Origin: Myxococcales bacterium
GTDB taxonomy: Bacteria > Myxococcota > Myxococcia > Myxococcales > Myxococcaceae
Assembly: GCA_020846875.1 (NCBI GenBank)
Contig: JADLDB010000067.1
Span: 1 to 64,000 of the forward strand
Direction of reading: 5' to 3'
Length of the DNA: 64,000 bases
Shown: positions 2-17,273 of the stretch, in pieces
Layout: each line of letters opens with the position of its first letter
How positions within the stretch are numbered: the stretch's first letter is position 1
Made by a program: the position numbers and the translations under genes
Notes under the pieces: model-generated
Seen by the model: the letters and a program-made list of their open reading frames with translations, nothing else
Told to the model about the DNA's origin: nothing
The model's database searches: none

Positions 2-622
2 AGCGCGTCCAACAACCCCGGCAGGCACGAGCCTGACGAGAAAGTCCGACGACTCCAGCGGAAGCTCTACGTTGCAGCCAAGCAGCAGAAGGAACGCCGA
101 TTCCACGCGCTGTACGACCGATTGTGCAGGAGTGACGTCCTGCGTGAGGCGTGGGAACGGGTGAAGCGCAAGAAGGGAGCCGGAGGCGTGGACGGAGTCA
201 CGCTCGAGGCAGTGGAGCAGTACGGCGTCGAGAAGCTGCTGAATGAGCTGCGAGACGAGCTCCACGCAGGAGAGTACCGAGCACCTCCCGTGCTGAGGCG
301 GTACATCCCGAAGGCCGATGGCAAGCAGCGGCCGCTGGGGATTCCGACGGTGAGAGACCGCGTCGTGCAGATGGCGGCGAAGCTGGTGTTGGAGCCGATT
401 TTCGAGACGGACTTCCTGCTCGAGCGGCTGAAGCTGACGCTGCATCCCGAGAAGACGAGAAGAGTGGACCTGACCGAGGGGAAGGAAGGTTTCGACTTCC
501 TCGGCAACGCCAGTGCGCTGAAGTCGGCGTGCATGCTGCATCGTGAAGTCCCACCCGTAAGCCGTGTGCGGGAAACCCGCACGCACGGTTTGAAAGGAGG
601 TGGGGGAGACCGCGCCGCGTGA
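2..622 (+). pseudogene. ltrA-like: Group II intron reverse transcriptase/maturase, internally deleted
   Basis: The frame is open from the left edge to the stop at 620-622, so the protein begins before the window. The N-terminal part is typical of bacterial intron-encoded proteins: the charged stretch KVRRLQRKLY, then GAGGVDGVT, then YIPKADGKQRPLGIPTVRDR (RT0/RT1 region). After EPIFETDF the sequence jumps directly to LLERLKLTLHPEKTRRVDL, which belongs after the polymerase active site. The FRPGRS region and the YADD catalytic box are absent. This is an in-frame deletion of roughly 150 residues. What follows GFDFLG is short and lacks a recognisable maturase domain X. It is a relic without polymerase activity; family assignment is firm. 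Confidence 0.8.
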
Positions 623-1403: not shown

Positions 1404-1496
1404 GGGCCGGCCGTGTGAGGTGATGCAAGCCAAGCGACGATGGTCGTAGCGCTCGCTGATGACCTGGAAGGCGAGCTTGGCTTGTGCGGTGTCCAT
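1404..1496 (-). pseudogene. IS21-family IstB ATPase fragment
   Basis: On the minus strand, 31 residues starting MDTAQAKLAFQVISERYDHR and ending LACITSHGRP resemble the part of IS21 helper ATPases that normally reads LLFQVISxRYERxSxIVTTN. The rest of IstB is not found on either side, and the frame around it reads as random low-complexity sequence. It overlaps, antiparallel, the start of the IS66 relic, so it marks a second decayed insertion. The assignment rests on a short match. Confidence 0.35.
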
Positions 1497-2344
1497 GGTG
1501 GCCTCGAACTTCTCGCTGCTGACGCCGCTGGACAGGACGCTTCGCGACTTGAAGGAGCGCGGTGTGCCGATGGCGATGGGCAGCCTCGTCGCCTTCATCG
1601 AGCGCGCGGCCGACTTGCTGTCGCCCATCGACGGCCTGCACTGGCAGCAACTGCTCTCCTCGGCGTGGATGGCCACCGACGGTAGCGGCCTCAAGGTGCT
1701 GGTGCCCGGGCTGCCCGCGGCACTCTCACCGCCGACGCGGAACACCGACTCAACGTCCTCTACGTCGACGGGCGTGTCATCGAGGCCGGGTGCAACGTCC
1801 AGGAAGTTCGAAGACCGAAGCCACGCAGCCCACGCTGGCGGCGGAGGGCGGCGCCTTCCTGTCTGCGATGTACGTCGAGGAGGCCCGCGCGCGCGAGTTG
1901 GGCCTCGTCGGCGACGCTCTCGTGGAACGCCGCCGCCGCCTCATCCGGCCGCTCGCGAACCAACTCGAGAAGTGGTGCGACGCCGTCGCGCCGCCGCTGC
2001 TGCCGTCCGAGTCGCTGGCCGCCGCCGTCGGGTACTACCAACGGCACAAGAAGGCCCTCTTCCGCTTCATCGACGACGCCAACGTCCCTCTCGGCAACTC
2101 CGTCACTGAGCGCGAGTTCCAGCACGTCGCCAAGCAGCGGTTGAACGCGCTCTTCGCCGGCAGCACCGAGGGCGCCCACCACGCCTGCGTCCTGCTGGGC
2201 ATCATCGCGACCTGCCGCACCGTCGGCGTCCCCGTGCAGGCCCACCTCACCTGGGCCTTCGAGTGCCTCGGCACGCACCGCGACGTCTTCGGGCTACGGC
2301 TCGAGGAGATGACGCCCGCCGCCTTCAAGAAGACTCTCGGCTGA
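1459..2344 (+). pseudogene. IS66-family transposase (TnpC), multiply frameshifted
   Basis: Three reading frames together give an IS66 TnpC. Around 1490-1710, FSLLTPLDRTLRDLKERGV through MATDGSGLKVLVPG matches the segment before and at the first catalytic Asp. Around 1715-1800 a second frame gives LNVLYVDGRVIEAGCNV. From about 1815 a third frame runs EATQPTLAAEGGAFLSAMY through LGNSVTEREFQHVAKQRL and NALFAGSTEGAH to the stop at 2344, matching the conserved IS66 C-terminus (LGNNxAERALRPxxxGRKNxLFxGS). At least two frameshifts and the absence of tnpA/tnpB mark it as dead. No terminal repeats were identified. Confidence 0.75.
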
Positions 2345-2574: not shown

Positions 2575-4203
2575 CTACTTCCTGGGAGAAACGCGATCGA
2601 ACGAGATCTCCGGCGACGGTGGAGGCGCTCGGTTGCGCGTGGCTCGGCCGATCCACAACGCCATCTCGCCATCGGGGCGGCGCGCCCACTGAAAGCAGCG
2701 CGTCACGGTGACCCCAGCGGGAATGACGGCAGCCAGAATCGGCCCCGAGGTGAGCGTGCGTGCGACCGCGCGCTCGGCGCCGTCAGCGACGAGCACCTCG
2801 CCGGCCAGGAGGCGCTCGGTGCCCGTCGCGCCCTCGGGGAAGAGAGGGAAGTGCGCCGCCGGCGCGGCCGAAATCAGCGCGTACTCGACCTCTGCCTCAG
2901 GCGGAACGGTGGCCGCGGCCGCCGAAGCGCGCTCGCGCTCCGAACGCTCAACGGGACCAGCGAGCCCGTCGACGCGCTGCTCGATGGCCCAGAACAGGTT
3001 CGACAGCTCGTCGCGGCACAGCTCGACTTGCTCGATGGGTGACGACTCGAGCCGCGAGCCCGACGCCGGCGGCAGGAACAGCGACGGAGCCGTGGTGCCC
3101 GACTGGCGCCACAGCGCGAAGCGCCGCACGCCGCGGTAGTCGCCGAGCGCCGGCAGCGCCACGCGCTCGCCGAAGGTGTCCTGCACCTCGACTCGCTTCA
3201 CCTCGTGGAGCGCGCCGGCCGGCAGCGTCACCGGAAGCTGGAACCAGTCGTCCCCCGCCACCAGCACGAAGTCGAGCACCACCGAGCGCAGCAGGCTGCC
3301 GTCGGCGATCAACTCGATGAGCCGCACCTCTTCGCCCTCGATCTCCCAGAAGCGGCTCGCCGGCATCCCCGGGAAGCGCACCAGCGTGGGGATCAGCGCC
3401 GGCGGCTTCGTCGTCGCTACCTCCTCGCTCGCGCCGGTCTTCGCGTCGGGCGCCACGTCGTACGCGTACCAGGCGGGCTCGCCCTCGTAGCCCGGCGCGG
3501 TGAGCGTCACCTCACCTGCCGTGCCGAGCGAGAAGCCGTGATCGAGCCACTCGGGACGCCACGCCTCGCCGCCCTCGGCGGGAACGATCCACCCGTCGAA
3601 CCACGTCCCCCACGACTCCAGCACCGCGTCGACCTTCTCGCGCGCGGCCGCAGAGAGCGCCGGGGTCACCGCCACCACCTTCGACGGCGGCTTCGCCTTC
3701 GCCAGCGCCGCGCGCACCGCACCGCCGTCGAGCACCTTTCCCGCCAGCAGCGCGGCGCGCCTCGCTCCGCGCGCATCGGCGTCGGGCAGCTCCGTGAGCG
3801 CGAACTTCTCCAGCAGCGCGTCGAGGAACTTCTTCGCGCCCGCCTCGAGCAACGACGTGGCCAGCTCGACGCCCGCCTCCGCGCGAGCGCGCAACGTGCC
3901 ACCGCCCTTCGGCGGCGCCTCGGCTTCGACGCGCGCTTCCAGCGAGTCGCGGCTCACGTCGAACTTCTCTCCCTTCGCGCGGGCGCCGGGGGCGAGCGGC
4001 TTCGGCACGAAGCGCGTCACCGCGCCCGACGACAGCTCGGCGCGCGCGACGATGGGCGAGCCGGCGTCGGTCGCCTGGAACTCACCGAGCTGCCACTGCC
4101 GGAAGATGAACCACAGCGGGTCGTGCACCCGCGCCTCTGCCTCCCGGGCGAGATCGGCGTCGGGAGCAGGCTCGAGGCGTGTCCAGGTCGTGATCGAGGG
4201 CAT
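2575..4203 (-). CDS. Uncharacterised 542-aa protein, last gene of the PhoD/DUF6603 cluster
   Basis: I do not recognise a named family. The protein begins MPSITTWTRLEPAPD and has no signal peptide or membrane segment, so a cytoplasmic or non-classically exported product is expected. Residues about 28-52 contain a Trp/Phe-rich motif (DPLWFIFRQWQLGEFQ, then TDAGSPI) that looks like a conserved family signature. An Ala/Lys/Glu-rich helical middle (about 95-215) separates it from a beta-rich C-terminal half. The ATG at 4203 lies 12 nt after the stop of the 1537-aa gene, with AGGTGA overlapping that stop as ribosome-binding site. The coupling suggests co-production with the other cluster proteins. 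Confidence 0.75.
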   Translation of the reverse strand: MPSITTWTRLEPAPDADLAREAEARVHDPLWFIFRQWQLGEFQATDAGSPIVARAELSSGAVTRFVPKPLAPGARAKGEKFDVSRDSLEARVEAEAPPKGGGTLRARAEAGVELATSLLEAGAKKFLDALLEKFALTELPDADARGARRAALLAGKVLDGGAVRAALAKAKPPSKVVAVTPALSAAAREKVDAVLESWGTWFDGWIVPAEGGEAWRPEWLDHGFSLGTAGEVTLTAPGYEGEPAWYAYDVAPDAKTGASEEVATTKPPALIPTLVRFPGMPASRFWEIEGEEVRLIELIADGSLLRSVVLDFVLVAGDDWFQLPVTLPAGALHEVKRVEVQDTFGERVALPALGDYRGVRRFALWRQSGTTAPSLFLPPASGSRLESSPIEQVELCRDELSNLFWAIEQRVDGLAGPVERSERERASAAAATVPPEAEVEYALISAAPAAHFPLFPEGATGTERLLAGEVLVADGAERAVARTLTSGPILAAVIPAGVTVTRCFQWARRPDGEMALWIGRATRNRAPPPSPEISFDRVSPRK

Positions 4204-4215
4204 CGGCGGTCACCT

Positions 4216-7200
4216 TCAGGCGAAAGGATCTACCGACGGCGTCTCGCCGGCGGCGTTGTGCGGCAGCACCACCGCGGGCAGGTAGTGGTGCGTCTGGGGT
4301 ACGTCGGCGTACGCGACGCCGCGGAGCTTCCCGAGCTCGAGCGCCTCCTGCACCACTTCGGCGACGAGGTCGGCGTCCCACGCCGGGCGATCGTCGGGAC
4401 ACACCGCGAGCAGGATCGCGTGCGGCGGCGCCGCCCCCGGCGCGTCGTAGTGGAAGGAGATCGCCGTCGGCTGCTCCTTCGCTGGCAGCCGCTCGGTGAA
4501 GCTGTCGAGCAGCAGCCCGCACTCGACGTCCTTCCAGGCGAGCCCGCCGGAGAGGTGCGCGACCAGCGAGAGCTCCGCCTCCGTCCCCGCGTTCAGCCCC
4601 GCCCATCGTTCACCGGCCGCGCGCGGGAGCTGCGCCGTCTCGAAGCGCGCCGCGCCGGGCGCCGAGGCCTGCTGGCAGAGGAGCGCGTCGGAGAAGTAGC
4701 CGAGCGCCTCACGGGCACGCGCCGCCTGCCTGAACCAACGTCGCGCCGCCGTGCGATCGTCCGCCTCGTCGAACGCCGCCGCGTCCAGCGCCTTCGCCTC
4801 GTCGGCGGAGAGCTGCAGGGGAGCGAGGAAGCGGAAGGAGTTGCCCACCAGCAGCTCGAGCCGCTCAGCGGAGTCGCGCACGCCCGCCGCCGCGGCGAGC
4901 CGCCGATCGAGCTCCTCGCCGGCGCGCCGCGCGAGGGCACGGAGGCCGTCGCCGCTCGTCTCCGGCGCTGCTACTGAGCCCGAGAGCCCCGCGCACCACG
5001 CGGCGAACAGCGCTGCCCGCGCGTCCGCCGCCTGCGCGGGCGTCAGCTCACCCGCGCCCGCCGCCAGCACGCGCAAGGGAGCCACCGCGGCGAGCAGCAC
5101 ACGCTCCGCCTCCGCGGCGGGACTCGCCGCGTCGGCGCTGGCGTCGCGCTCGCGAGGCGGCCAGGTGACATCTTCGGCCCTGAGCGCGCGCCCAGCGGTC
5201 ATCGCCCGCCACGCCACGCACGCCGCCTCGAGCAGCTCGTCGAGCGCGTTGCTCCACGCCACCTCGACGCGCGCCGCCTTCGAGAGCGCCGCCGGACGCA
5301 GCGTGAAGAGCTGGTGCGAGAGCGCCGCGGTCAGCTCGTCGGGCCGCGCGACGCCGCTGGCGGTGCAGCCGAACACGACGTCGAGCGTCGAGAGCTTCGC
5401 CGCCGAGAGCGGGTGCTTCTTCGACGCCACCAGTCCGCCGCGCTCGTCAAGGTAGCGCGCCTCGGCCTGCGTCTCGTGCCACGGCCCGAGCAGCTCGCTC
5501 GCCAGCCTCTCGAGGCTCGCCGAGATGCGGGCGCGCAGCTGCGGCGCGGGCCAGCTGCGCGAGCGCTCCTTGCCGCGGAGCACCATCACCCGGTGCACCA
5601 GGCTCTTCTGCGACCGCCGCGTCTCGAGCACGTCGAACTGCGCGGGTGCGCCGCGGCCTTCCTCGTACGCGGCGACCAGCGCGCCCGCCTTGTCGAGCCT
5701 GCCCCCGACCCACTGGTGCATGCTCTCGGCGACCACCAGATCGGCCATCGCATCGGACGTGTCCGCGAGGCGATCGATCTCGAGCAGCACTTCGGACTCG
5801 AGCGAAGCGCCCGCGATGCCGGGCACCCACCCCACCCGCAGATCCTGGCTGCCACCGATCTCGACGAAGCCGCTGCCGTCGAAGCGCACCGCCTTCTCCG
5901 CGGGAACGCGCTCGCAGCCGACGCCCAACAGGCCGTCGCGGCGGCCCACCGCGTCGCGGCACGCGTCCCCCGACGCTTCATCGAGCGGCCAGTACGCCAC
6001 CAGCGCCGGCCCCCCTCCCGCCCTGCCCTGCGCCGCTGCGAGCACGTCGGCAGGGCTGCGCGCCACCGACCAGAGGCGCACCTCGCGCAGCGTGCCCCTG
6101 AAGTTGCGCGCGGTGCCGCCGCGCTGCTGGCCGCCGAGGCGCACCGTCACGCCCGGAGCGACGAAGGGCGTGACGGCCATCGCCGCGACGCCTGCTGGCT
6201 GGCCATCGACGAAGAACGACAGCCTCGCCCCGTCGCGCACCACGGCCACATGCACCCAGCGGCCAGCCGGCACCGGCGTGGTGCTGAACGCGCCGTTCCA
6301 CTCCGGCGTGCCCCACGCGGCGGCCCCCTCGAGCTGCCACGCGAACGCGAGGCGCCCGTCGCGCATCAACCCGAGGAGCGCGTGGTCCTGCGGGCCGTTG
6401 GCCCAGTGGTTGAGGATCGACGTCCAGTCCTCGGCGATCGACTCGACGTTGACGAAGGCCTCGAGCGTCGCCTGCGTGGTGAGCGTTCCCGCGCGGTACA
6501 GCTCGGCGAGGCGCAGCCCGTCCACCTGCGGCTCGCGTCGCTCCTTCGGCGGTGGCGCGAGCGAGCGCAGCCCCGCGATCGCGCCGCCCTTGCCGAGCTC
6601 GATCAGCCTGCGCTCGAGCTGCTCGCCGAGCACCGCGCCCAGCGGCCGTCCACCCTCGGCGGCCTCGAGCGCCCGCAGCGCGCGGCGCACCCGCGCGCTC
6701 GAGAGATCGATCTGAAACGCGTTGCCGAAGGCGCGGTGCGCGCGGTACCCGGCGGCGAGCAGCGCGGCGGTGGCGGCGTGCTCCTGACTGGGCGCGTGAA
6801 CGTACCCCGCCGATGGCGCCGCCGACGCGGGCAGCAGATTCTCCACCCACCCGAACGCTCCGAGCGCCAGCCCGGCGGGCCGCTTCTGCCGCACCGCCTG
6901 CAGCCGCCGCGAGGCGAACGCCGTCCACCAGGCGTCGAGGCGGTGAGAGAGCGCGTCGAACGCCGCGCCGAAGCCGAGCTCGAGCCGGTCGGCCGGCACC
7001 CCCGCGAGCAGCCGCGCCGCCTGCCACCACTCCCGCCACTCCGCGAGCGCCGGGCTCGTGCCCGTCCCCGCGCGCTCGGCGTCGAGGAACTGCTCCACCG
7101 TCTGCGCGCCCAGCGGCTGCGAGAAGATCGCCAGCGGCGACTCGGTGAGCCACTCCGCCTCATCGAAGACACGGCCGGCGCGCTGGTGGCCGAGCTCGAG

Positions 7201-8829
7201 CGCGGCGCGCAACCCAGCCAGCCGCAGCACCTGGCCGAGCAGCGTCGCGGGCGCGCCACCGCGGAGCCCCGCGACGTTCGCCTGCGCGAGACCCGCCACG
7301 AACGGGTCTACGCCAGCCAGCGGCGCCTTCACCACTGGCGCCTCGTCGGCGAACACCGCGCCCGACAGCCGCGGCGTCAGCGACAGGCCCGCGTTGTGCA
7401 GACCGAGCAGCGCGAACTGCTGCCGCCCGTCGAGCCAGGCGCGCTCCGCGGCGGCGTCGGCCGTCCACGGCAGCGGCGGCGACACGTCGAGCACGCGGTA
7501 CTCGGTGCCCGGCGAGAAGTTCGGGTCGATGGTCTGCAGGTCCTCCACGTGGCCCGGCGGCGGCGCCGGCCGCATCATCTGGTACAGGTTCCGCAGGTAG
7601 CGCCGGCCGAAGAGCGGGCGCGCGCCGAGGCGGTGGGTGACGGGCGTGCGGGCGAGCGCGCGGAGGATGCCGTCGGCGCCGGCCTCGGTGACGCGCGGGA
7701 GCGCCGCGAGCGCCGCACCGAACGGCCCCGCGCGCAGCTTGCCGAGCAGCGAGAGCAGCTCACCCTCGGCGGGCTCGGTCGGCTTGAGCGCGCGCCAGAG
7801 CGTCACCGGCAACACACCGTACGGCTGGCTGCCGATGCGCAGCGCGGGGAGCGGCCCCAACGGGCGCACGTGCTCGATGAAGTGGCGGCGAACCCAGGCG
7901 CGCGTGCTCTCGCCCGCGCCCATCCACTGGCTGAGCCACGCGCCCAGGGTCGCCGGCCAGAGCGCGGTGTGCAGCGCCCGCGCCTCCGCCTCGTCCTGGC
8001 CGCCCGCCAGCGCGAGCTCGAGTGACTTCGCCGGAATTCCCAACGCCGCCGCGAGCCGCGCCGCGCGCTCGTTCTTCGCCTCGGCCGGCGCCGCGCCCGC
8101 CACCGCGCCCGGCATGTGGTTCGTCGGCGTACCCACCGGCATGAACGAGGCGCCGCGGTCGAAGCGCTGCGCGGTGAGCAGCGCCGTGAGCCGCGCCGCG
8201 CCGGCCTCGGGCGCTTCCTCGGCGACGCCGAAGGCGATCAGCCGGGTGAGCCCGCGCGAACGGATGTCCGCCGCGCGCGCGCCGAGCGGAATCGACACCG
8301 CCAGCCCCGCCGAGGTCGCCGCGTCGAAGTCGTGCAGCCAGCGCGTGTCCGCGTCGAAGGGCAGCTCGCCCTCGGGCTGCCGAGGCACGACCACCGGCTC
8401 CGCCGACACCGGCGCGCCCTCGGCCTCGAGCACCTTGTCGGCGCCGAGGAACCCGACCACCCGAAACCGCGAAGGCAGCCCCAGAGCGCGCGTGCGCCGC
8501 GGGCGATCGACGGGCTTCGGCAGGGGCGCCGGCCCGCTCCGCCCGCGCGAGCGCCACGACGGGTAGGCAGCGAGCGCCTGCAGCACCCACTGCGCGCGCG
8601 CCGCGCCCACCGCTTCGTCGAGCTCGCGCCGCGCTTCAGCCTGCGGGAGCTTGCTCTCGAAATAGCGAACGCCCGCGTCGAGCTCGGCCTGCGACAGGCC
8701 CTCCTGATGCGAGGTGACGTGGAGCTCGTCGGGGAAGATGCGCACCAGCAGCGCGTCGCCGCGGAAGCGGGTCTCGAGGCGAACCGGCAGCAGCACCAGC
8801 GGAACGTCGGCGGAAGGGAAGGTAGCCAT
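4216..8829 (-). CDS. Uncharacterised 1537-aa protein with LamG-like domain
   Basis: Very large protein without signal peptide or membrane segments. The N-terminus (MATFPSADVPLVLLPVRLET) leads into a beta-rich region, and the motif LRIGSQPYGVLPVT lies near residue 325. Residues about 785-965 form a concanavalin/LamG-like jellyroll, seen in WVHVAVVRDGARLSFFVDGQ, GTLREVRLWSVARSPADVL and YWPLDEASGDACRDAVG. Such domains usually bind glycans or act as structural modules. The C-terminal third is Ala/Glu-rich and ends with DVPQTHHYLPAVVLPHN. The frame is open further upstream, but the start is set at ATG 8829 because it overlaps the upstream stop as TGATG. Function unknown; the neighbours suggest a partner in a multi-protein assembly. 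Confidence 0.75.
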   Translation of the reverse strand: MATFPSADVPLVLLPVRLETRFRGDALLVRIFPDELHVTSHQEGLSQAELDAGVRYFESKLPQAEARRELDEAVGAARAQWVLQALAAYPSWRSRGRSGPAPLPKPVDRPRRTRALGLPSRFRVVGFLGADKVLEAEGAPVSAEPVVVPRQPEGELPFDADTRWLHDFDAATSAGLAVSIPLGARAADIRSRGLTRLIAFGVAEEAPEAGAARLTALLTAQRFDRGASFMPVGTPTNHMPGAVAGAAPAEAKNERAARLAAALGIPAKSLELALAGGQDEAEARALHTALWPATLGAWLSQWMGAGESTRAWVRRHFIEHVRPLGPLPALRIGSQPYGVLPVTLWRALKPTEPAEGELLSLLGKLRAGPFGAALAALPRVTEAGADGILRALARTPVTHRLGARPLFGRRYLRNLYQMMRPAPPPGHVEDLQTIDPNFSPGTEYRVLDVSPPLPWTADAAAERAWLDGRQQFALLGLHNAGLSLTPRLSGAVFADEAPVVKAPLAGVDPFVAGLAQANVAGLRGGAPATLLGQVLRLAGLRAALELGHQRAGRVFDEAEWLTESPLAIFSQPLGAQTVEQFLDAERAGTGTSPALAEWREWWQAARLLAGVPADRLELGFGAAFDALSHRLDAWWTAFASRRLQAVRQKRPAGLALGAFGWVENLLPASAAPSAGYVHAPSQEHAATAALLAAGYRAHRAFGNAFQIDLSSARVRRALRALEAAEGGRPLGAVLGEQLERRLIELGKGGAIAGLRSLAPPPKERREPQVDGLRLAELYRAGTLTTQATLEAFVNVESIAEDWTSILNHWANGPQDHALLGLMRDGRLAFAWQLEGAAAWGTPEWNGAFSTTPVPAGRWVHVAVVRDGARLSFFVDGQPAGVAAMAVTPFVAPGVTVRLGGQQRGGTARNFRGTLREVRLWSVARSPADVLAAAQGRAGGGPALVAYWPLDEASGDACRDAVGRRDGLLGVGCERVPAEKAVRFDGSGFVEIGGSQDLRVGWVPGIAGASLESEVLLEIDRLADTSDAMADLVVAESMHQWVGGRLDKAGALVAAYEEGRGAPAQFDVLETRRSQKSLVHRVMVLRGKERSRSWPAPQLRARISASLERLASELLGPWHETQAEARYLDERGGLVASKKHPLSAAKLSTLDVVFGCTASGVARPDELTAALSHQLFTLRPAALSKAARVEVAWSNALDELLEAACVAWRAMTAGRALRAEDVTWPPRERDASADAASPAAEAERVLLAAVAPLRVLAAGAGELTPAQAADARAALFAAWCAGLSGSVAAPETSGDGLRALARRAGEELDRRLAAAAGVRDSAERLELLVGNSFRFLAPLQLSADEAKALDAAAFDEADDRTAARRWFRQAARAREALGYFSDALLCQQASAPGAARFETAQLPRAAGERWAGLNAGTEAELSLVAHLSGGLAWKDVECGLLLDSFTERLPAKEQPTAISFHYDAPGAAPPHAILLAVCPDDRPAWDADLVAEVVQEALELGKLRGVAYADVPQTHHYLPAVVLPHNAAGETPSVDPFA

Positions 8830-11444
8830 CAGGGGAGCAGATCGACTGCGGGGATGACGACGCGGAAGGGGCGCCGCAGGCTCGACTGGGCGAGCTGGGC
8901 GGACGAGGTGGCCGCGAAGGCCGTGGCGCGCAGCGGGCCGGGCGCGGCGCCGCGGGGGGCGGTGAAGCACGGCTCGGTGGGCTGTTCCTCGAGCACGAAG
9001 CGCCAGCGCTGGCCAGGGTCGGACAGCGCCGCGGCGGCGATGGGGAACCCAACGAAGCGCGTGCTCTCGTCGAGCGCGCCCTCGAAGGCCGGCGCCGTCG
9101 CAGGCTGGCCCTCGCGCGCGGCGTAGATCGTCACGCGCGGCTGGTTGCGAATCAGCCCGCCGCGGAGGAGCAGCACCGCCGCGTCGCGCAGCGCCGCCTT
9201 CAGGTTGCCCTCGGCGTTCCACGCGTCGAGCGGCGGCACCTCGGGCTCGGCGGTGAACATGCTGTCGAAGAAGGTCGGCGCGCCCTTCACCGGCACCTTC
9301 CGCCAGCGCACCTCGCGCAACAGCTCGTGGTTCAGCCCCGCGAGGAACGCCTCGATCACCGGGCCGTTCACCGCGAGCAGGCCGACCGTGTTCATCGGCA
9401 CGCGCTCGAGGTGCGGCAGCATCGCCTCGGGCGCGAGCTCGACCAGCGTGCGCCACATCGGGTACCGGATTCCGAGCGGGCTCGTGGCGGGCGCCGTCAC
9501 TGGCGGCGCGACCACGGGCATCACCAGCTTCGCCGTCGCCGGCTGCACCGCCGCGGTCGCGAAGGTGAGCGGCTGGAACACGCCGGTGATGATCAGCGGC
9601 CTCATCAGCGGCGCGAGCCACTGCTGCACCGCGCGCGCCGCGGGCCGGAACAGCGTCGCGTCGGCGCTGTCGACGTTGTCCTGCGGCTGCGCCTGGTGCA
9701 GCCGCCACGGTACGCTCGCGCGGAGGTTGGTGAGGTTTCGGAGGACGGTGTCCACGACCTCCAGGGGATCGTCGATCGGCTCGGGCTCAGCCACGTCGTC
9801 GAGCCGCCGGTGATCGCGAATGACGACCGGCCGCGGACGCACCGGGCGCACGCGATGCGTCTTCAGCTCGATCTTCGCGTTCACCACCGCGAGGCCGAGC
9901 GGGAAGTCAGCGCGCTCGTCCACCAGCTTGAAGAGCAGCGCCTTCGGCCAGGCGTCCACCGTCGCCGGAGCGATGCCCAGCGGGCTCGGCATGGCGGGCC
10001 CGCCGCGCTGGAACGAAGCGATGCCGGGCTCGGGCGGCGTGAAGACCCCGCGCGACAGCCTGCGCGCGCTGAACATCAACGAGGCGCGGCCCGAGATCGT
10101 GCTGAGCCGGCGCACCGCGGGGAGCAGGTTCGGTGCGACCGCGGGCGGTGTGGTGGCCGGTGTGGCCGGCGTGCTGGCGGCGGGCGCCGCGCGCGTCGCG
10201 AACGCGGTGACGCGGGCCACGATCTCCGGTGACGCCTTCGCCTGTTCCTGGGCGCCGAAGAACCGCCGCAGCATGGCGCGGTTCACCTCGCGCGCCGCCT
10301 CGGCCATCGCGGGCGCGGGGCGCTCGAGCTGCTCGTGCACCGCGGCGATCAGCGCTTCCTGCTGCTGCTGCACCACCCGCGTTCCGAGCGCCGCCGCCGC
10401 CCGGAGCGACGGGTCGCGGTTGAGCCGACCGACCCACGGCCCCTGCGGCGCGTGGCCCTCTCCGTACCGCGGGGGCACCAGCGTCTTCTTATTCGCCTGG
10501 AGCGCATCGACGGCGCCCGCGAAGCGCTGTGCGTCCGCGGCAGGAAGAGGCGACGGCTGGGCCTCGAAGGCGCGCAGCACGCCAGGGAGCTCGAACGCGA
10601 AGCCCTTCTTCAACCCTGGAGCAGGCGTGGCGAACGCGGCGCGCGCGCCCACCCTGGCGTCGAGCTTGCGCGGGGTGAGCTGCTCGACCTGCTCACGAAA
10701 GCCGCCCTGGTCGGAGCACTCGAGCTCCCAGTGGAAGTAGACGGGCAGCTCGACCTGCGCGGCGGCCACGCTCCACGCGAAGGCGAGGCCCGCGCCCTCC
10801 ACCGGCAGTCCGAGCCCCGTGCGGCGGCCCAGCTCCCAGGTCGGTACGAGGCAGGCGACGTAGCGCCTGCCCTTCTCGAGCTTGCGCGCCGCGAGCAACC
10901 GCGACGACGACTGGGCGGGCTTGTCGCGCACCAGCGCCTCCAGCGCCGCGCGATCGGTGACGTTCACGCCCGCCACCTGCGCGTGCGCGAAGGCCCACGC
11001 CTCGTCCGGCCGCGGCAGCTCGGCCGCGACCACCGCGGCGCCCTCGAGGTGCAGCACCGCGTTCTGACCGGCGCGCACCTCGAGCCGCACCCCGCTGCGC
11101 GGCTCGACCACCAGGAGCTGCAGCCAGGGCATGAGCTTGCCGCCGGCCGGCGCGTTGGGCGTGAACAGCCAGGGAAAGTCTGCGCGATCGAGCTCCACGG
11201 CGACGAGGGTGTCGTCGGTGAGCTGGCCGCCCGGCGCGGGGAACGTACGGATCACCGCGGAGCGATCGATCGCCACCACGTCGCCCGGCCCGAAGAGCTC
11301 GGTCGCGACGTCGATGGTGCGCGCGGGCTGGGCGCCCTGCTGCAGCTTCACCTTCACCGACACCGACGGACGCGCAGCCGGCGCGGGCGACGTCAGCGCC
11401 GCGGCGAGCCCCTGCCGTGCCCAGGGGAGAAACGTCAGGTTCAT
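8829..11444 (-). CDS. Uncharacterised 871-aa protein of the PhoD/DUF6603 cluster
   Basis: Begins MNLTFLPWARQGLAAALT and has no signal peptide or membrane helix. The N-terminal ~300 residues look beta-rich. A Pro/Ala/Thr linker (about residues 450-475) divides the protein. The C-terminal part contains VNGPVIEAFLAGLNHELLRE (residues 692-711) and VLEEQPTEP (817-825), which read like strongly conserved blocks of a family I cannot name with certainty. The ATG at 11444 overlaps the stop of the DUF6603-like gene as ATGA, which excludes the longer upstream frame. The 3' end overlaps the next gene by one base. Translation of the three large proteins is therefore coupled. Confidence 0.75.
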   Translation of the reverse strand: MNLTFLPWARQGLAAALTSPAPAARPSVSVKVKLQQGAQPARTIDVATELFGPGDVVAIDRSAVIRTFPAPGGQLTDDTLVAVELDRADFPWLFTPNAPAGGKLMPWLQLLVVEPRSGVRLEVRAGQNAVLHLEGAAVVAAELPRPDEAWAFAHAQVAGVNVTDRAALEALVRDKPAQSSSRLLAARKLEKGRRYVACLVPTWELGRRTGLGLPVEGAGLAFAWSVAAAQVELPVYFHWELECSDQGGFREQVEQLTPRKLDARVGARAAFATPAPGLKKGFAFELPGVLRAFEAQPSPLPAADAQRFAGAVDALQANKKTLVPPRYGEGHAPQGPWVGRLNRDPSLRAAAALGTRVVQQQQEALIAAVHEQLERPAPAMAEAAREVNRAMLRRFFGAQEQAKASPEIVARVTAFATRAAPAASTPATPATTPPAVAPNLLPAVRRLSTISGRASLMFSARRLSRGVFTPPEPGIASFQRGGPAMPSPLGIAPATVDAWPKALLFKLVDERADFPLGLAVVNAKIELKTHRVRPVRPRPVVIRDHRRLDDVAEPEPIDDPLEVVDTVLRNLTNLRASVPWRLHQAQPQDNVDSADATLFRPAARAVQQWLAPLMRPLIITGVFQPLTFATAAVQPATAKLVMPVVAPPVTAPATSPLGIRYPMWRTLVELAPEAMLPHLERVPMNTVGLLAVNGPVIEAFLAGLNHELLREVRWRKVPVKGAPTFFDSMFTAEPEVPPLDAWNAEGNLKAALRDAAVLLLRGGLIRNQPRVTIYAAREGQPATAPAFEGALDESTRFVGFPIAAAALSDPGQRWRFVLEEQPTEPCFTAPRGAAPGPLRATAFAATSSAQLAQSSLRRPFRVVIPAVDLLP

Positions 11445-14400
11445 GGGTTCGCCCTCGCGCGCGTCAGGAACCGCTCGAGCCCCGGGCGCCGTGAGGCTGC
11501 CTCCGCCCGCGCCGAGCGCGCGAGCAGCGCCTCGAGCGGCAGCGCCGACACCGCCGCCGCCACCGTCGCCGGCGCGCTCCCCGCGCCGAGGCGGAGCTCG
11601 ACGAACTCCTGCGTCGAAGCGGTGGCGCCCTCGCCCACCGACACCGCGCTGTCCGAGGCGATCACCGCGCCGGCGTTCATGTCCTCGAAGGCGGGCGTCG
11701 AGAACAACTGCTCCTTGCTCAGCTTCTGGAAGCGGCCGCGCGAGAACTGGTTCTTCACCGCGCGCGGCGCCGCGACGCTCACCGCGCCGAGCGAGGCGCC
11801 GGCGACGCGCACCGCCCCCTGCGCCGTCACCGGCCGCCCGCCGACCTTCTGCAGCGGCAGGTCGAGCGGCACGACGTCCTGCGCGAACTCGAGCGACTGC
11901 AGCGGGTGCAGCAGCAGGCGATCGCCCGAGGGCTTCTGCGACAGCCGCACGCTGGCGCCGTCCGCGGGGAGCGCGCCGGCCTCCCACGCCTTCGGGTTCT
12001 GCAGTTGCACGCGGAGGATCTCCACGGGGTCCACCGGCGCGGGTGGCGGCGGCGTCGCGCCCGAAAGGCTGCGATCGAACGAGTAGCTCACGTCCCACCA
12101 GAGCACCTCGAACGTCACCTTGCCCGAGACGCGCAGCGGCTTCGGCCCGCGCAGCCGCCCCTCGAGCCGCGCGCCGGCCACCGTCGAGCCCAGCACCGCG
12201 AGCCGCACCCGGCCGCGCACCTCGGCGTCGAAGTAGAACGGGTCGAACTCGAAGAGCGCGTCGAACCCGAAGCCGCCCTCGAGGCTGACGAGGTTCTCGA
12301 TGCCGACGAACGCGTCCACCTGCGCGCCGAGCTGCAGCGAGTTGGGCGTCACCGCGAAGTACGCCGTGAGCGTCACCTTCAGCACGTCGGTGCTGGGCGC
12401 CTTGAGCGTGAAGCGGCCGAGGCTCGAGAACACCGGCAGCGAGCGCTCCGGGCCGCGGTAGTCCTTGTGGAAGCCGCCGATCGCCAGCACGAAGGTGCGC
12501 GGCGACCTCCAGCGGATGAGCAGCGCCGCGTCGCCGGTCACCTCCGCGCCGAGCAGCTTCGAGTTGTAGATGTGCGCCTCGAGCAGCAGCTCGCCGTTGC
12601 CGAGATCGAGCACGCCGATCGCGGCCAGTTGCAGCTTGCCCGCCTGCTTGCAGTCGATCTCCAGCCGGCCCGCGGCGACGATGCGCGCGGGCTGCGAGGT
12701 GTCGTACAGCAGGCCGAGGTCGATCTTCACCTCGTCGCCGCGCGAGAGCCGCGCCGTCAGCGCGAAGGTGTGCGCACCCCGCGCCGGAGGGAAGAGCGTG
12801 CTGAGCTGGCTCACCGTCTGCGCGAGGTTGGCGAGCGGATCAGGCGGAGCGAGCAGCGCCTCGAGCAACCCGGTCTTGATGCCCGCGCGGAAGGCGGCGA
12901 GCTCGAAGCGCCGGTTGTAGCCGAACACCAGGCCGGCGCGCGTGAGCGCCAGGCCCATGCCCACCGGCAACCCGGGGTTGAGGCTCAGCGAGCCCTGGAG
13001 AAAGAGCGAGATCGCCTTCTCGCCCCCGGGCAGGTGCGTGGCGAGGAGCCCGGTGACGGAGAGCTTGAAGCGCTTGCTGAGCTGCACCTCGAACGCGCCG
13101 ACGTACTGATCCGTCGCGGCGTCCCTGCCGAGGAAGCCGGCGCCCTTCACCGCGGCGGCGTCGAGCGACAGCCCCACTCCCTCGGGCGGCTTGAAGCCGG
13201 CCTCGAGGTGAAACAGCCCCGCGACGTTCGACGGAAACGAGTCATCGGCGCGCAACTGGAAGCCCACGCCCTCGGCCACGGCGCTCAACGGCCCGAGCTT
13301 GAACTGGAGCCCGAACCCCGCCGTCATCTCGAGCGCGTTGCCGTCGGCGCTGGGGCCGAGGCGCGCGCGGAGGTGCTGCACGCGCGCGGGCCCGGCGCTG
13401 AGGCCGACCGGAACGTCGACCACGACGCCGCTCGAGCCGAGCTGAAACCCCTTCTCGGAGTCGAGCTGCAGATCGAGATCGAAGGTCGCCTTCGCGTGGC
13501 TCTCGCCGAGCGCCTCGTTGCTGAGCGCGTCGCGAGACTCCTTCGGCGGCGTCGAGATGGTGTTGCCGCGCGCCTCGAGCCGAACGCCGAAGCCACGCTG
13601 TGACGACGCCCAGGCCGAACTGCTCAGCGTCCCGAGCCTCACGTACTTTCCGAGCGTGAGCGGGTCGAGCCTGCCGTCGCGCGAAGCCTTCAGCGTCACG
13701 TCGTAGCTCGACGGGGTCCCGCGGCCCTCGAGGGCGAAGTCCCAGTCGCCGAACCTGCGGCTGACCGCCGCCTCGCCCTCGGCGCGAACGATGAGGCACG
13801 GCTCGATGGGCTTCGGCGGCACTACCATCGTCAGCCGCAGCACGCGCTCCTCGAGGGTGCTGCTGGCGGCCTCGACCAGATCCTTCGGCTGCGGGTCGGC
13901 GGCGATCTCGAGGGTGGTGAAGTGGAAGAGGTGCTTGTCGGCGCGCGGCGTCTTCGAGAACGGCGACGGGTCCCACCCGGGGAACGCGCGGAACTGAATC
14001 GGCACCGGGAAGTGCGGCGTCTCCTCGAGCCCGGGCGCGAGCCCGACCAGCTTGCTGCCGTACTTCGAGAGCAGGATCGCGCCCACGCCGATGGCGACCG
14101 ACGTCCACGCGCGCTCCTGCTCGTCGTCGCGGCCGAAGCGGAAGCCGTGCTCGTCGCCGACGAAGAGCGCCTTCCACCGCTGGCCGTTGAACGTCTCTCC
14201 GAACGGGAGCGCCGCGCGATCGTCGATGAACTGCAGCACGCGCATGATGCTCCACACGCCCGGCGCGCGCAGCCGCAGGTAGTCGACGGCGAGGAAGTTG
14301 GGGAGCAGGTGGAGGAACTGCTCCAGCGTCATGTCGAGGCCGCTGAGCTGGTCCTCGAGCCGAATCGTCTCGGCGGCGTCGCGCAGGTTGTCGATCAACG

Positions 14401-14632
14401 CGAGCAGGCTCCCGGCGCCGCTGGCGATCGCCGCGAGCTCGATGTCGCGCTGCTGGTCCGCGGAGAGGACCTTCTTCTCGAGGGCCGCCATCACTCTCGG
14501 GGTGAACAGCTTCACCGTGGCGGGGTCGACGTACCCGAGGCTGGCGAGGATCTCCCGCTGCACGTCGGGCTCGGCGAGCGGCCGCATGGCGCTGACGATC
14601 GCGTCGAGTGCTCTTTCGAAGAGATCGGCCAT
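11441..14632 (-). CDS. DUF6603-like large beta-rich protein
   Basis: 1063 aa. Residues 1-160 are helical (MADLFERALDAIVSAMRPLA onward). The rest is a long run of amphipathic beta strands with alternating Gly, as in LTRAGLVFGYNRRFELAAF, SLEGGFGFDALFEFDPFYF and SGKVTFEVLWWDVSYSFDRS. This pattern agrees with DUF6603, an uncharacterised domain of large bacterial proteins; I make that assignment from memory of the family's look. No signal peptide is present, so an outer-membrane barrel is unlikely unless export is unusual. The ATG at 14632 sits one base after the stop of the PhoD-like gene (TGA-C-ATG), with GGGGAAG as ribosome-binding site. Function unknown. Confidence 0.65.
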   Translation of the reverse strand: MADLFERALDAIVSAMRPLAEPDVQREILASLGYVDPATVKLFTPRVMAALEKKVLSADQQRDIELAAIASGAGSLLALIDNLRDAAETIRLEDQLSGLDMTLEQFLHLLPNFLAVDYLRLRAPGVWSIMRVLQFIDDRAALPFGETFNGQRWKALFVGDEHGFRFGRDDEQERAWTSVAIGVGAILLSKYGSKLVGLAPGLEETPHFPVPIQFRAFPGWDPSPFSKTPRADKHLFHFTTLEIAADPQPKDLVEAASSTLEERVLRLTMVVPPKPIEPCLIVRAEGEAAVSRRFGDWDFALEGRGTPSSYDVTLKASRDGRLDPLTLGKYVRLGTLSSSAWASSQRGFGVRLEARGNTISTPPKESRDALSNEALGESHAKATFDLDLQLDSEKGFQLGSSGVVVDVPVGLSAGPARVQHLRARLGPSADGNALEMTAGFGLQFKLGPLSAVAEGVGFQLRADDSFPSNVAGLFHLEAGFKPPEGVGLSLDAAAVKGAGFLGRDAATDQYVGAFEVQLSKRFKLSVTGLLATHLPGGEKAISLFLQGSLSLNPGLPVGMGLALTRAGLVFGYNRRFELAAFRAGIKTGLLEALLAPPDPLANLAQTVSQLSTLFPPARGAHTFALTARLSRGDEVKIDLGLLYDTSQPARIVAAGRLEIDCKQAGKLQLAAIGVLDLGNGELLLEAHIYNSKLLGAEVTGDAALLIRWRSPRTFVLAIGGFHKDYRGPERSLPVFSSLGRFTLKAPSTDVLKVTLTAYFAVTPNSLQLGAQVDAFVGIENLVSLEGGFGFDALFEFDPFYFDAEVRGRVRLAVLGSTVAGARLEGRLRGPKPLRVSGKVTFEVLWWDVSYSFDRSLSGATPPPPAPVDPVEILRVQLQNPKAWEAGALPADGASVRLSQKPSGDRLLLHPLQSLEFAQDVVPLDLPLQKVGGRPVTAQGAVRVAGASLGAVSVAAPRAVKNQFSRGRFQKLSKEQLFSTPAFEDMNAGAVIASDSAVSVGEGATASTQEFVELRLGAGSAPATVAAAVSALPLEALLARSARAEAASRRPGLERFLTRARANP

Positions 14633-14633
14633 G

Positions 14634-17273
14634 TCAGGGCTTCCCCAGTGAAGGAGGAGTAGCGGACGGCGGCGTCTTCAACGCGATCACGAAGACCGTG
14701 TGCGGCTGGGTGCCCTGCGCGGGGTCGGCGGCGCGCGGCTGGTAGTGCACCTCGTGGCGCACCGACGGGCCCTGGGGACCCGCGGCGAAGCGCACCATTC
14801 CGAAGTTGTTCGAGAACACCACCCGCCGCGGCGCGAGCCGATCGACCTGCAGCGCGTGGCGCTCGGCGAGCTTCTCGAAGTCGGCCTTGCCAGGCTTCTC
14901 CGGCACCTCGACCGGGGTGGGCATGCCGCCCGCGATGGCGGGCCGGCGCTCGAGTGTGGGCGGCGGCGTGCCCGCGTCATTGGCCTCGGGCCGCTCGTCG
15001 AGCACCGGCACGTACCGCCACGCCCAGTCAGGAGCCCGCGTCACCTGCGTGCCCTCGGGCCACCCGTCGGCGGCGAGGAGCAGCGGAGATCGGTTCAGGT
15101 TGCGGATCTGCGAGGACGGGACGCGCTTGCCGTCGGGCACCGTCCACGGCACGGGGCGGTCGGCCTTCCAGCCGACGCGCGCGGGCTTGATCGCCTCGGT
15201 GAGCGCGCGCTGGCCGAGCGGTGGGTCGACGAGGGTGATGAGCGAGGGCTGGTTCTTGAACGCGCTGGCGGTGAGCTGAATGAACCGCGTCGGCCGCGAG
15301 CCCTTCCAGTAGTCGATGACGGCGCCGGCGGCGTAGTGCACATCGCCCGAGAGGAAGATGACCGGTCGCCCCGTCGCGTACGCCTCGAGCCGTGCGAGCA
15401 ACGCCTCGAAGGTGCCCGGCTCGAAGCCCCAGGGCTCGGGATCCTTGTCGAGGAACTTGGCGCGCGTGCGCAGCCACTTGCCGCCCTTCTTCTCCTCGGG
15501 CTCCTGCAGGTGGCCGAGCATCGTCAGCACGTGCAGCGCGGCGGGCTGCACCAACTCGTCCATCAACGACGGGCCGATCACCGGACAGGGGGCCACCACC
15601 AGCACCGCCTCGAGGCCCGTGTCCGCCGGGCCTTTGGGGATCTGATCCTTGAGGCCGGCCTCGTCGATCAACCCGGCGGGCGAGACGGTGCCCGGGTAGT
15701 AGCGGCGGGTGCGGCTGTCGAGCACGAGCAACTCGAAGCGCGAGGCGCGGTAGCGAAAGTGCCAGCGCACGGGCGCCTTCGCGGGCGCGGTGGGCGCCGC
15801 CGAGGTGCGCAGGTCGAGCAGCTCGTCGAGGGCGGCGGTCGCGTCGCCCCACCCCTTCCTGCCGAGCGTCGCGCCGTCGATGACCTCGAGCAGCTTCGCG
15901 CGGCGGGTGCGCTCACCGTTCTGCCCGTCGTCGATCCAGTCGAGCGGGTTGTTGCCCCACGCCTGGAAGAGCGCGTACGCGACGAGCCCGTTGCGCACGA
16001 TCGCCCGGCCGGCGGGGCGCGAGTACACCTCGAGCTTGAAGCGCTGCACGATGTTCCAGTCGTCGGTGATCTCGTGATCGTCGAAGATCATCAGGGTCGG
16101 CACGTTGGCGAGCGCGCGGCGGACCTTCGGCAGCGCGTCGTAGAACTGCTGCAGCTTGACGAGGTTGTTGCGGCACCCGATGAACGTGCCGGGCTTCTTC
16201 TTCTCCTTCTCTTTCTGTGCGTTCTGGCGGCGCTCGGCGAGCTCGGCGGGCGAGAGCTTCGCCTCCTCCTTCGCGATCTCGGCGGCCTCCACCTTGTCGA
16301 AGAGCCAGGGCGTCTTCGCGGCGTCGACGTCCTCGAACCTGCCGACGAAGACCGGGTCTTGCGGAGTGAGCGCCTTCGGGTCCGGGCGCGCGGACCAGAG
16401 CTCGTTGCTCCAGCCGAGCAGGTACATCGCCGCGTACTCACCGAACGAGAGCAGGTGCTGCTCGCGGTCCTGGCTGGTGAAGCGCGCGTGGGCGTCGCAG
16501 TAGAGCGTGCGCTTCCCGTTGGGGAAGTTCTTGAAGTCGCATGGGCGCCACTCGGCCTCGGAGTCCTTGCCCTGCTTGTCGAGGATCGGCAGCGCCTCCT
16601 TGTTCTCGTCGCGGGTCGACACCGAGATCAGCCGCTGTGCGATCGGGTTCAGCTCGGCGAGCAGGAAGGGCGACACGTCGTCGGCGTAGATCTGATCGCC
16701 GGTGAGCATCAGCAGGTGGGGCCGCTTGCGTGGCTCGGTGACGGAGCGCGCGATGGTGTCGTCGATGAAGGCCATCGCGTCGGGCCCCTCGGCCGCAGCG
16801 CGCCGGCAGGAGCCGTGAATCAGCACCAGGTCTTCGAGCGCCAGCGGCGGGAGCGCGAACGACGGCAGCCGCCCCTGGTTGAAGCCGAGCGCGAGGTGGT
16901 GCGGCGGCATGCCGGCGTCCTGCTTGTCGACGAGGAGCCCGAGCGACCGGAGATCGGACGTCGCCGGCTGCCCACCGCCCGTGCGCGTGAGCTGCACGTT
17001 GTACGAGTAGAGCTGGTCGGGCACGAGCTTCTGCGTGTCCGGCAGCCGAACGACCGCCACGGCGACGTGCAGGCGATCGCCGGCCTTGATGGTGTTGGCC
17101 TTCGGGGGGTCGTCGCCCTTGATCATCGGCGTCGCGCCCGGGCCATCGACGACGCCGCGGAACAGCTCGACGCGCACCTTGCATGGCTCGGAGGTGGCGA
17201 CCCACACCGAGACGAGGCCAGGCTCGACCCGTCGCAAGATCGGGCCCGCCATCAGCAATGGAAAGTCCCCCAC
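14634..17273 (-). CDS. PhoD-like metallophosphatase without Tat signal
   Basis: 879 aa. An N-terminal Ig-like domain (GPILRRVEPGLVSVWVATSE) precedes a calcineurin-like phosphoesterase domain of the PhoD type. Motifs: HGSCRR (153-158), LTGDQIYADD (190-199), IFDDHEITDDW (396-406), VLDSRTRRYYPG (517-528) and LSGDVHYAAG (641-650), which supply the metal-binding Asp, Asn and His residues. PhoD enzymes are normally Tat-exported phosphodiesterases, but this one has no signal sequence. A Lys/Glu-rich insertion (about 328-360) separates two catalytic motifs. The start is GTG 17273 after GGGGGG; an in-frame ATG at 17252 (MAGPILRRV) is also plausible. A TAGGTT -10-like box lies at 17303-17308. It heads the run of four large unknown genes. 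Confidence 0.8.
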   Translation of the reverse strand: MGDFPLLMAGPILRRVEPGLVSVWVATSEPCKVRVELFRGVVDGPGATPMIKGDDPPKANTIKAGDRLHVAVAVVRLPDTQKLVPDQLYSYNVQLTRTGGGQPATSDLRSLGLLVDKQDAGMPPHHLALGFNQGRLPSFALPPLALEDLVLIHGSCRRAAAEGPDAMAFIDDTIARSVTEPRKRPHLLMLTGDQIYADDVSPFLLAELNPIAQRLISVSTRDENKEALPILDKQGKDSEAEWRPCDFKNFPNGKRTLYCDAHARFTSQDREQHLLSFGEYAAMYLLGWSNELWSARPDPKALTPQDPVFVGRFEDVDAAKTPWLFDKVEAAEIAKEEAKLSPAELAERRQNAQKEKEKKKPGTFIGCRNNLVKLQQFYDALPKVRRALANVPTLMIFDDHEITDDWNIVQRFKLEVYSRPAGRAIVRNGLVAYALFQAWGNNPLDWIDDGQNGERTRRAKLLEVIDGATLGRKGWGDATAALDELLDLRTSAAPTAPAKAPVRWHFRYRASRFELLVLDSRTRRYYPGTVSPAGLIDEAGLKDQIPKGPADTGLEAVLVVAPCPVIGPSLMDELVQPAALHVLTMLGHLQEPEEKKGGKWLRTRAKFLDKDPEPWGFEPGTFEALLARLEAYATGRPVIFLSGDVHYAAGAVIDYWKGSRPTRFIQLTASAFKNQPSLITLVDPPLGQRALTEAIKPARVGWKADRPVPWTVPDGKRVPSSQIRNLNRSPLLLAADGWPEGTQVTRAPDWAWRYVPVLDERPEANDAGTPPPTLERRPAIAGGMPTPVEVPEKPGKADFEKLAERHALQVDRLAPRRVVFSNNFGMVRFAAGPQGPSVRHEVHYQPRAADPAQGTQPHTVFVIALKTPPSATPPSLGKP

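Follow-up and report, generated by a model that had tools for sequence, protein, structure and literature searches.

Tc toxins (TcA/TcB/TcC) are made of a few giant proteins that supply a pore-like, translocating part, an enzymatic payload and receptor-binding inserts. Extracellular contractile injection systems (eCIS), among them Afp, PVC and the contractile injection system (CIS) of Streptomyces, are patchily distributed in soil bacteria and archaea and combine signal-less parts with effector cargo and adhesive fibre modules (PMC12923769). Here we report a five-gene operon in a stretch of 64,000 nucleotides (nt) from a Myxococcales bacterium (contig JADLDB010000067.1 of assembly GCA_020846875.1, positions 1 to 64,000; hereafter the window), in which a gene for a PhoD-like enzyme (X) precedes four genes, A to D, for large proteins. 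Protein A carries DUF6603 (PF20248), to our knowledge a family without an assigned function. Genes A-B-C-D form a conserved, horizontally mobile cassette of bacteria and archaea that is usually led by one swappable enzyme gene and that matches no described system.

All five reading frames are open and lie on the minus strand, spanning positions 17273 to 2575 of the window. The features are as follows, with lengths in amino acids (aa).

14634-17273, minus strand: X, PhoD-like metallophosphoesterase, GTG start, 879 aa, occupying the variable enzyme slot
11441-14632, minus strand: A, DUF6603 protein and hallmark of the system, 1063 aa, predicted to be a giant antiparallel beta meander
11711-13405, minus strand: DUF6603 domain of A (Pfam), residues 410-974
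8829-11444, minus strand: B, core protein of no known family, 871 aa
4216-8829, minus strand: C, core protein of no known family, 1537 aa
6043-6480, minus strand: LamG/concanavalin-like domain inserted in C, residues 784-929 (Pfam Laminin_G_3, 77.8 bits)
2575-4203, minus strand: D, core protein of no known family and last gene, 542 aa
17369-18598, minus strand: lipoprotein gene 95 nt upstream of X, 409 aa, lipobox LGSSAC, start MTARALVAALCLGSSAC

A preliminary description of this DNA had called the genes translationally coupled, and its four junctions are present as described: X and A are separated by 1 nt (TGACATG), A and B overlap by 4 nt (ATGA), B and C overlap by 1 nt (TGATG), and C and D are joined as TGA, 12 nt and ATG. 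Its two family assignments also pass the Pfam cut-offs, with X matching PhoD at 29.7 bits (cut-off 27), in addition to DUF7800, and A being a clear member of DUF6603 (299.6 bits, profile positions 2-501 of 502). Pfam gave no match for B or D, and NCBIfam none for any of the five proteins. The view that the large proteins fall outside well-characterised families thus holds in that no family was found for B, C or D, but it had overlooked the LamG domain inside C. A hydropathy scan, as distinct from a trained predictor, agrees with the earlier statement that none of the five has a signal peptide or membrane segment: no N-terminal hydrophobic segment was seen (best 19-residue Kyte-Doolittle mean below 1.0 in the first 60 residues), the maximum over the whole proteins was 1.75, and by hydropathy signal peptides are absent from nearly all relatives too.

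The evidence for a conserved unit comes from the distribution and order of the genes. Homologues of D on plasmids of Streptomyces, Rhizobium, Nocardia, Gemmatirosa, Paraburkholderia and four haloarchaea were used as the entry; DUF6603, B, C and D followed in the same order in 11 of the 12 plasmid-search records examined, and one Streptomyces plasmid (L016, NZ_CP109276.1) encoded D alone, with no DUF6603 anywhere on it. Scanning 84,980 species genomes with a D alignment yielded at least 559 stretches encoding a D relative, the best 80 of which belong to Acidobacteriota, Verrucomicrobiota, Nitrospirota, Chloroflexota, Bacillota, Actinomycetota, Pseudomonadota, Myxococcota, Bacteroidota and haloarchaea. 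When family models were applied to 78 loci with D, the collapsed orders were ABCD (46), XABCD (3), BCD (16), CD (9) and D (4), the shorter strings coming mainly from loci truncated by a contig end or by the limit of the fetched flank; reordering occurred in none, and every order was consistent with A-B-C-D. Median junction gaps were -4 nt for X/A, -0.5 for A/B, 8.5 for B/C and 4 for C/D. Because homologues in other phyla keep both this order and these tight junctions, the operon is more than a chance arrangement, and since the genes after D at the loci examined are unrelated housekeeping genes, D closes the unit.

Co-occurrence free of seeding bias was counted in two sets of genomes. Among 193 genomes of the window's phylum, D was found in four and DUF6603 over cut-off in 13, and all four D genomes had DUF6603 beside D (P 1.3e-5). 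Of 150 Streptomyces genomes, 11 carried a strong D (12 loci) and 19 carried DUF6603; at all 12 loci DUF6603 lay on the same contig and strand, within ∼9-14 kb (hypergeometric P 5e-12). By these counts D is almost never found apart from A, whereas A can lack D. The cassette is patchy, being present in ∼2-7% of genomes, and is often plasmid-borne (Streptomyces, Rhizobium, Nocardia and haloarchaea); phyla are intermixed with high support in the D tree, where, for example, Polyangium stands beside Arthrobacter. The families therefore occur together, in fixed order and with coupled junctions, in bacteria and archaea alike; the rare co-occurrence that would have refuted the preliminary description is not seen.

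Some loci deviate in their accessory genes. Eleven Nitrospira loci (L032, L044, L048, L051 and others) have a ∼269-aa coiled-coil protein between B and C. In one Nitrospira locus (L065, 12118-13275) D is followed by a gene for an H-type lectin whose C-terminus is Gp53-like, as in tail fibres, and in Neobacillus (L108, ∼1.5-10 kb) DUF6603 is preceded by a series of adjoining ∼500-aa genes, of which at least three are related.

The unit had been taken to comprise five genes; the A-B-C-D core is indeed fixed, but the enzyme slot is swappable. Of the 52 type-1 loci for which upstream sequence was available, 22, the window included, have a gene for a PhoD-like X directly before A, a count made with a home-made codon-bias gene caller on a sample biased toward close D relatives and leaving aside L102, a type-2-like DUF6603 match. 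Other occupants are phospholipase D in Nitrospira, an M64-like peptidase in Bacteroidota and Virgisporangium, and a NAL1/trypsin-like protein in Gemmatirosa, Paraburkholderia and one Myxococcota relative. Nitrospira has both phospholipase D and PhoD slot types, and the slot label changes nine times for six labels on the D tree, so that occupants have been exchanged. In Micromonospora and Polyangium (L105, L106) an alpha/beta-hydrolase is fused in the N-terminal half of a ∼2700-aa A, which argues that the enzyme is a physical part of the complex; the earlier picture of one enzyme with several structural subunits fits the system.

Window X has all the expected motifs (GSCR, GDQIYADD, DDHEITDDWN and SGDVHY), and these are intact in most loci. 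Neither X nor its relatives have an N-terminal hydrophobic segment by hydropathy. In both Streptomyces of the 150-genome sample that have a full-length X, it adjoins A. Six of the 22 X proteins carry C-terminal extensions, several with PG_binding_1; a PG_binding_1 domain is present in the X of L138, and the X of L008 is annotated as peptidoglycan-binding. One member of the PhoD family is a secreted phospholipase D with membrane-binding ability (PMC4223295), which makes it plausible, by analogy, that X acts on phospholipid headgroups.

Sequence searches with A-D against PDB chains gave chance-level matches only. For A, residues 270-1063 were modelled from 40 sequences with a predicted local distance difference test score (pLDDT) of 79 and a predicted template-modelling score (pTM) of 0.65, giving ∼30 antiparallel strands, mostly of 9-16 residues and mostly amphipathic. 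Its structural neighbours include SlpA, the FimD/PapC ushers, LptD, porins and the ApoB100 belt, the best reaching Foldseek E values of 2.5e-4 to 2e-3 and a VIA Z of up to 14.7 over 279 residues. As regards an outer-membrane beta-barrel, the model has long amphipathic antiparallel strands and barrel-like neighbours, but the template-modelling (TM) score is ∼0.2, A has no signal peptide, and the system is also found in monoderms and archaea. We take the predicted A to be a sheet of barrel or belt type, similar in general class to these neighbours and a member of none of their families.

In B the N-terminal ∼400 and C-terminal ∼200 residues are conserved and the middle is variable; six B proteins have FG-GAP domains, and FG-GAP or LamG inserts occur in the middle of B relatives. 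LamG, present in window C, is absent from the other C proteins scanned. D has the motif DPLWxLxRQWQxGEFxGEDAGSP, with lamin-tail domains in haloarchaeal D, and was modelled from a 67-sequence alignment with a pLDDT of 83 and a pTM of 0.81. A fold search with the whole D model returned nothing from the PDB at E <= 0.001, no VIA Z above 2.4 and nothing viral, which signifies the absence of a recognisable PDB relative of the whole model and does not establish a new fold. Among themselves, B, C and D are unrelated at the detection limit, apart from a weak helical similarity between C and D (45% probability, E 2e-4) that we keep as a hint only. Across the system the optional binding modules thus comprise LamG (window C), FG-GAP (B), lamin-tail (haloarchaeal D) and peptidoglycan-binding domains (some X).

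DUF6603 genes of the window's family that lack D belong to a second cluster type (type 2; nine loci, L141-L146 and L150-L152), in which A' and then B' are accompanied by a C' of 1230-1370 aa and, in the loci that were scanned, a fibre-like protein. By hhalign, B' is a homologue of B (93.7%, E 1.9e-7), and C' has no detectable relation to C or D. The type 2 fibre proteins contain a domain of the Phage Tail Collar, Gp10_C or Peptidase_S74 family. The enzyme genes alongside code for a class-3 lipase, an LCAT-like hydrolase or a protein with a metallo-beta-lactamase fold. What both types have in common is A-B together with adhesive or fibre proteins and a variable hydrolase, and DUF6603 marks at least two cluster architectures. 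We found no described function for type 2 DUF6603 clusters.

Around the operon in the window, fragments at 121-620 (plus strand) and ∼1459-2341 (plus strand) resemble, by eye, a group II intron reverse transcriptase and an IS66-type transposase; they lie just past the operon 3' end and fit a mobile neighbourhood. The lipoprotein gene upstream of X had been put forward as a possible envelope anchor, a role we have dropped, as no relative of it was found among the genes flanking other loci.

We tentatively favour, while holding it somewhat doubtful, a reading in which A-D and the slot enzyme form an effector-bearing, surface-binding particle assembled in the cytoplasm. The five proteins would be co-produced there and assemble as one particle, with A as a long beta-sheet core, whether an open or closed barrel-like channel, a belt with a hydrophobic face or a cargo-holding core. 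B, C and D would make up a shell bearing the adhesive and ligand-binding modules, and the slot protein would be the enzyme that the particle carries, in most cases a hydrolase that degrades membranes or proteins. Because the proteins lack signal peptides and the cassette lacks export genes, the particle would probably leave the cell by lysis or by an unknown route; it might then dock on another cell, where A would insert in or bridge the membrane and the hydrolase would act. That the cassette represents a new, pan-prokaryotic class of effector-delivery particle, with a DUF6603 barrel or belt core, a B-C-D shell and adhesin, an exchangeable hydrolase warhead and no contractile, RHS or secretion-signal machinery, is possible, and we regard it with more doubt.

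Several observations weigh against such a particle. The match of A to its barrel neighbours is loose (TM ∼0.2, root-mean-square deviation ∼11-12 Å) and no demonstration of membrane insertion. No secretion, release or immunity gene recurs beside the cassette in the flanks of the loci examined. The slot is not reserved for enzymes that could serve as toxins, as it also holds one ferritin-like and several unknown proteins, and shorter relatives of X are solitary and far from any DUF6603 gene in Roseibium and Salinivibrio. Catalytic residues are lost in the X of two Streptomyces (L008:2-4189 and L138:8111-12496), where GEHD and GGQD replace DDHE and GGSGH or GGVGH replaces GDVHY, so catalysis is dispensable there.

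The main alternative is a lipid-carrying particle, in which A would act as an amphipathic beta belt like that of ApoB, holding or transferring lipid within the cell or at the envelope, with the particle stabilised by B-D and with the slot enzymes remodelling the lipid. The ∼30 long amphipathic strands of a signal-less A, with ApoB100 and LptD among its neighbours, would suit this role, as would the many lipid-acting enzymes in the slot or linked to it (phospholipase D, PhoD and alpha/beta-hydrolase, and the class-3 lipase and LCAT-like enzymes of type 2), but M64-like and trypsin-like peptidases share the same slot, and adhesive and phage-fibre modules would be superfluous for an internal particle; we therefore think it unlikely. 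The hydrolase slot, the ligand-binding modules and the peptidoglycan-binding tails on some X could also belong to a cellulosome-like scaffold, anchored to the surface by LamG, FG-GAP or peptidoglycan-binding domains with help from the lipoprotein, that degrades polymers or frees phosphate. The absence of signal peptides from the five proteins and nearly all their relatives speaks against this, as do the retention of catalytically dead X, the peptidases in the same slot and the lack of conservation of the lipoprotein, which leaves a surface scaffold unlikely too, and slightly more so.

A variable effector slot is typical of conflict systems, and the patchy, mobile, plasmid-borne distribution would also suit one; A-D might sense phage or damage inside the cell, and the hydrolase in the slot would then kill the host or protect it. 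However, the five proteins match no PADLOC model up to E 0.1, the core has no nucleotide-sensing, ATPase or nuclease subunit, and the ligand-binding and fibre modules point outwards, which makes an intracellular defence or stress system improbable. Least credible of all is an ordinary metabolic operon, with unrelated large proteins brought together by chance or shared regulation: solitary X relatives do exist, but the same order and coupled junctions recur in two domains of life, and this synteny already contradicts it.

A phage origin was rejected, given that PHROGs matched the LamG region of C alone with nothing convincing for the other four proteins, that A is absent from phage records (tblastn) and that D appears in them on one unverified faecal scaffold only; a viral contig scan with D alone found no relative. 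That scaffold, a human-faeces 'Bacteriophage sp.' record (L155, MT835531.1), encodes B, C, D and part of A and is probably a bacterial or prophage fragment.

A literature search under DUF6603 or combinations of the domains found nothing describing the system, which spans at least nine bacterial phyla and haloarchaea, with at least 559 candidate relatives, and has no name, assigned function or structure. A lipid particle of this kind would be what apoB is in eukaryotes, transposed to prokaryotes; if hydrolases are delivered to other cells, the cassette would stand as a new class next to Tc toxins and contractile injection systems. In both cases DUF6603 gains a context open to testing, with defined subunits, a swappable slot and natural, catalytically dead variants of X.

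With the PhoD family, including Bacillus PhoD and the Streptomyces chromofuscus phospholipase D, X shares the core motifs and a Pfam score above cut-off, but it has no export signal, has extra N- and C-terminal regions and is embedded in a conserved operon; in a comparison of motifs, as distinct from an alignment, X has DD-x4-DD where the reported PhoD ligands D265/D266 and N271/N272 imply DD-x4-NN. The cassette is patchy and signal-less like eCIS, and its relatives contain modules such as collar, H-lectin and S74, but it has no sheath, tube, baseplate or AAA+ gene; Phage_sheath_1 had no match in the window's genome, although the profile matches three of 14 control genomes, and the five proteins gave no sheath-like Pfam match. 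With Tc toxins it shares a logic only, namely a small number of giant proteins, a putative beta component that is pore-like or translocates, an enzymatic payload and receptor-binding inserts. The number and order of the genes differ, A-D have no relative of solved structure, and the five window proteins gave no Pfam match to RHS, TcA or TcB up to E 1. On the best reading, the cassette would be analogous to Tc toxins or contractile injection systems and unrelated to either.
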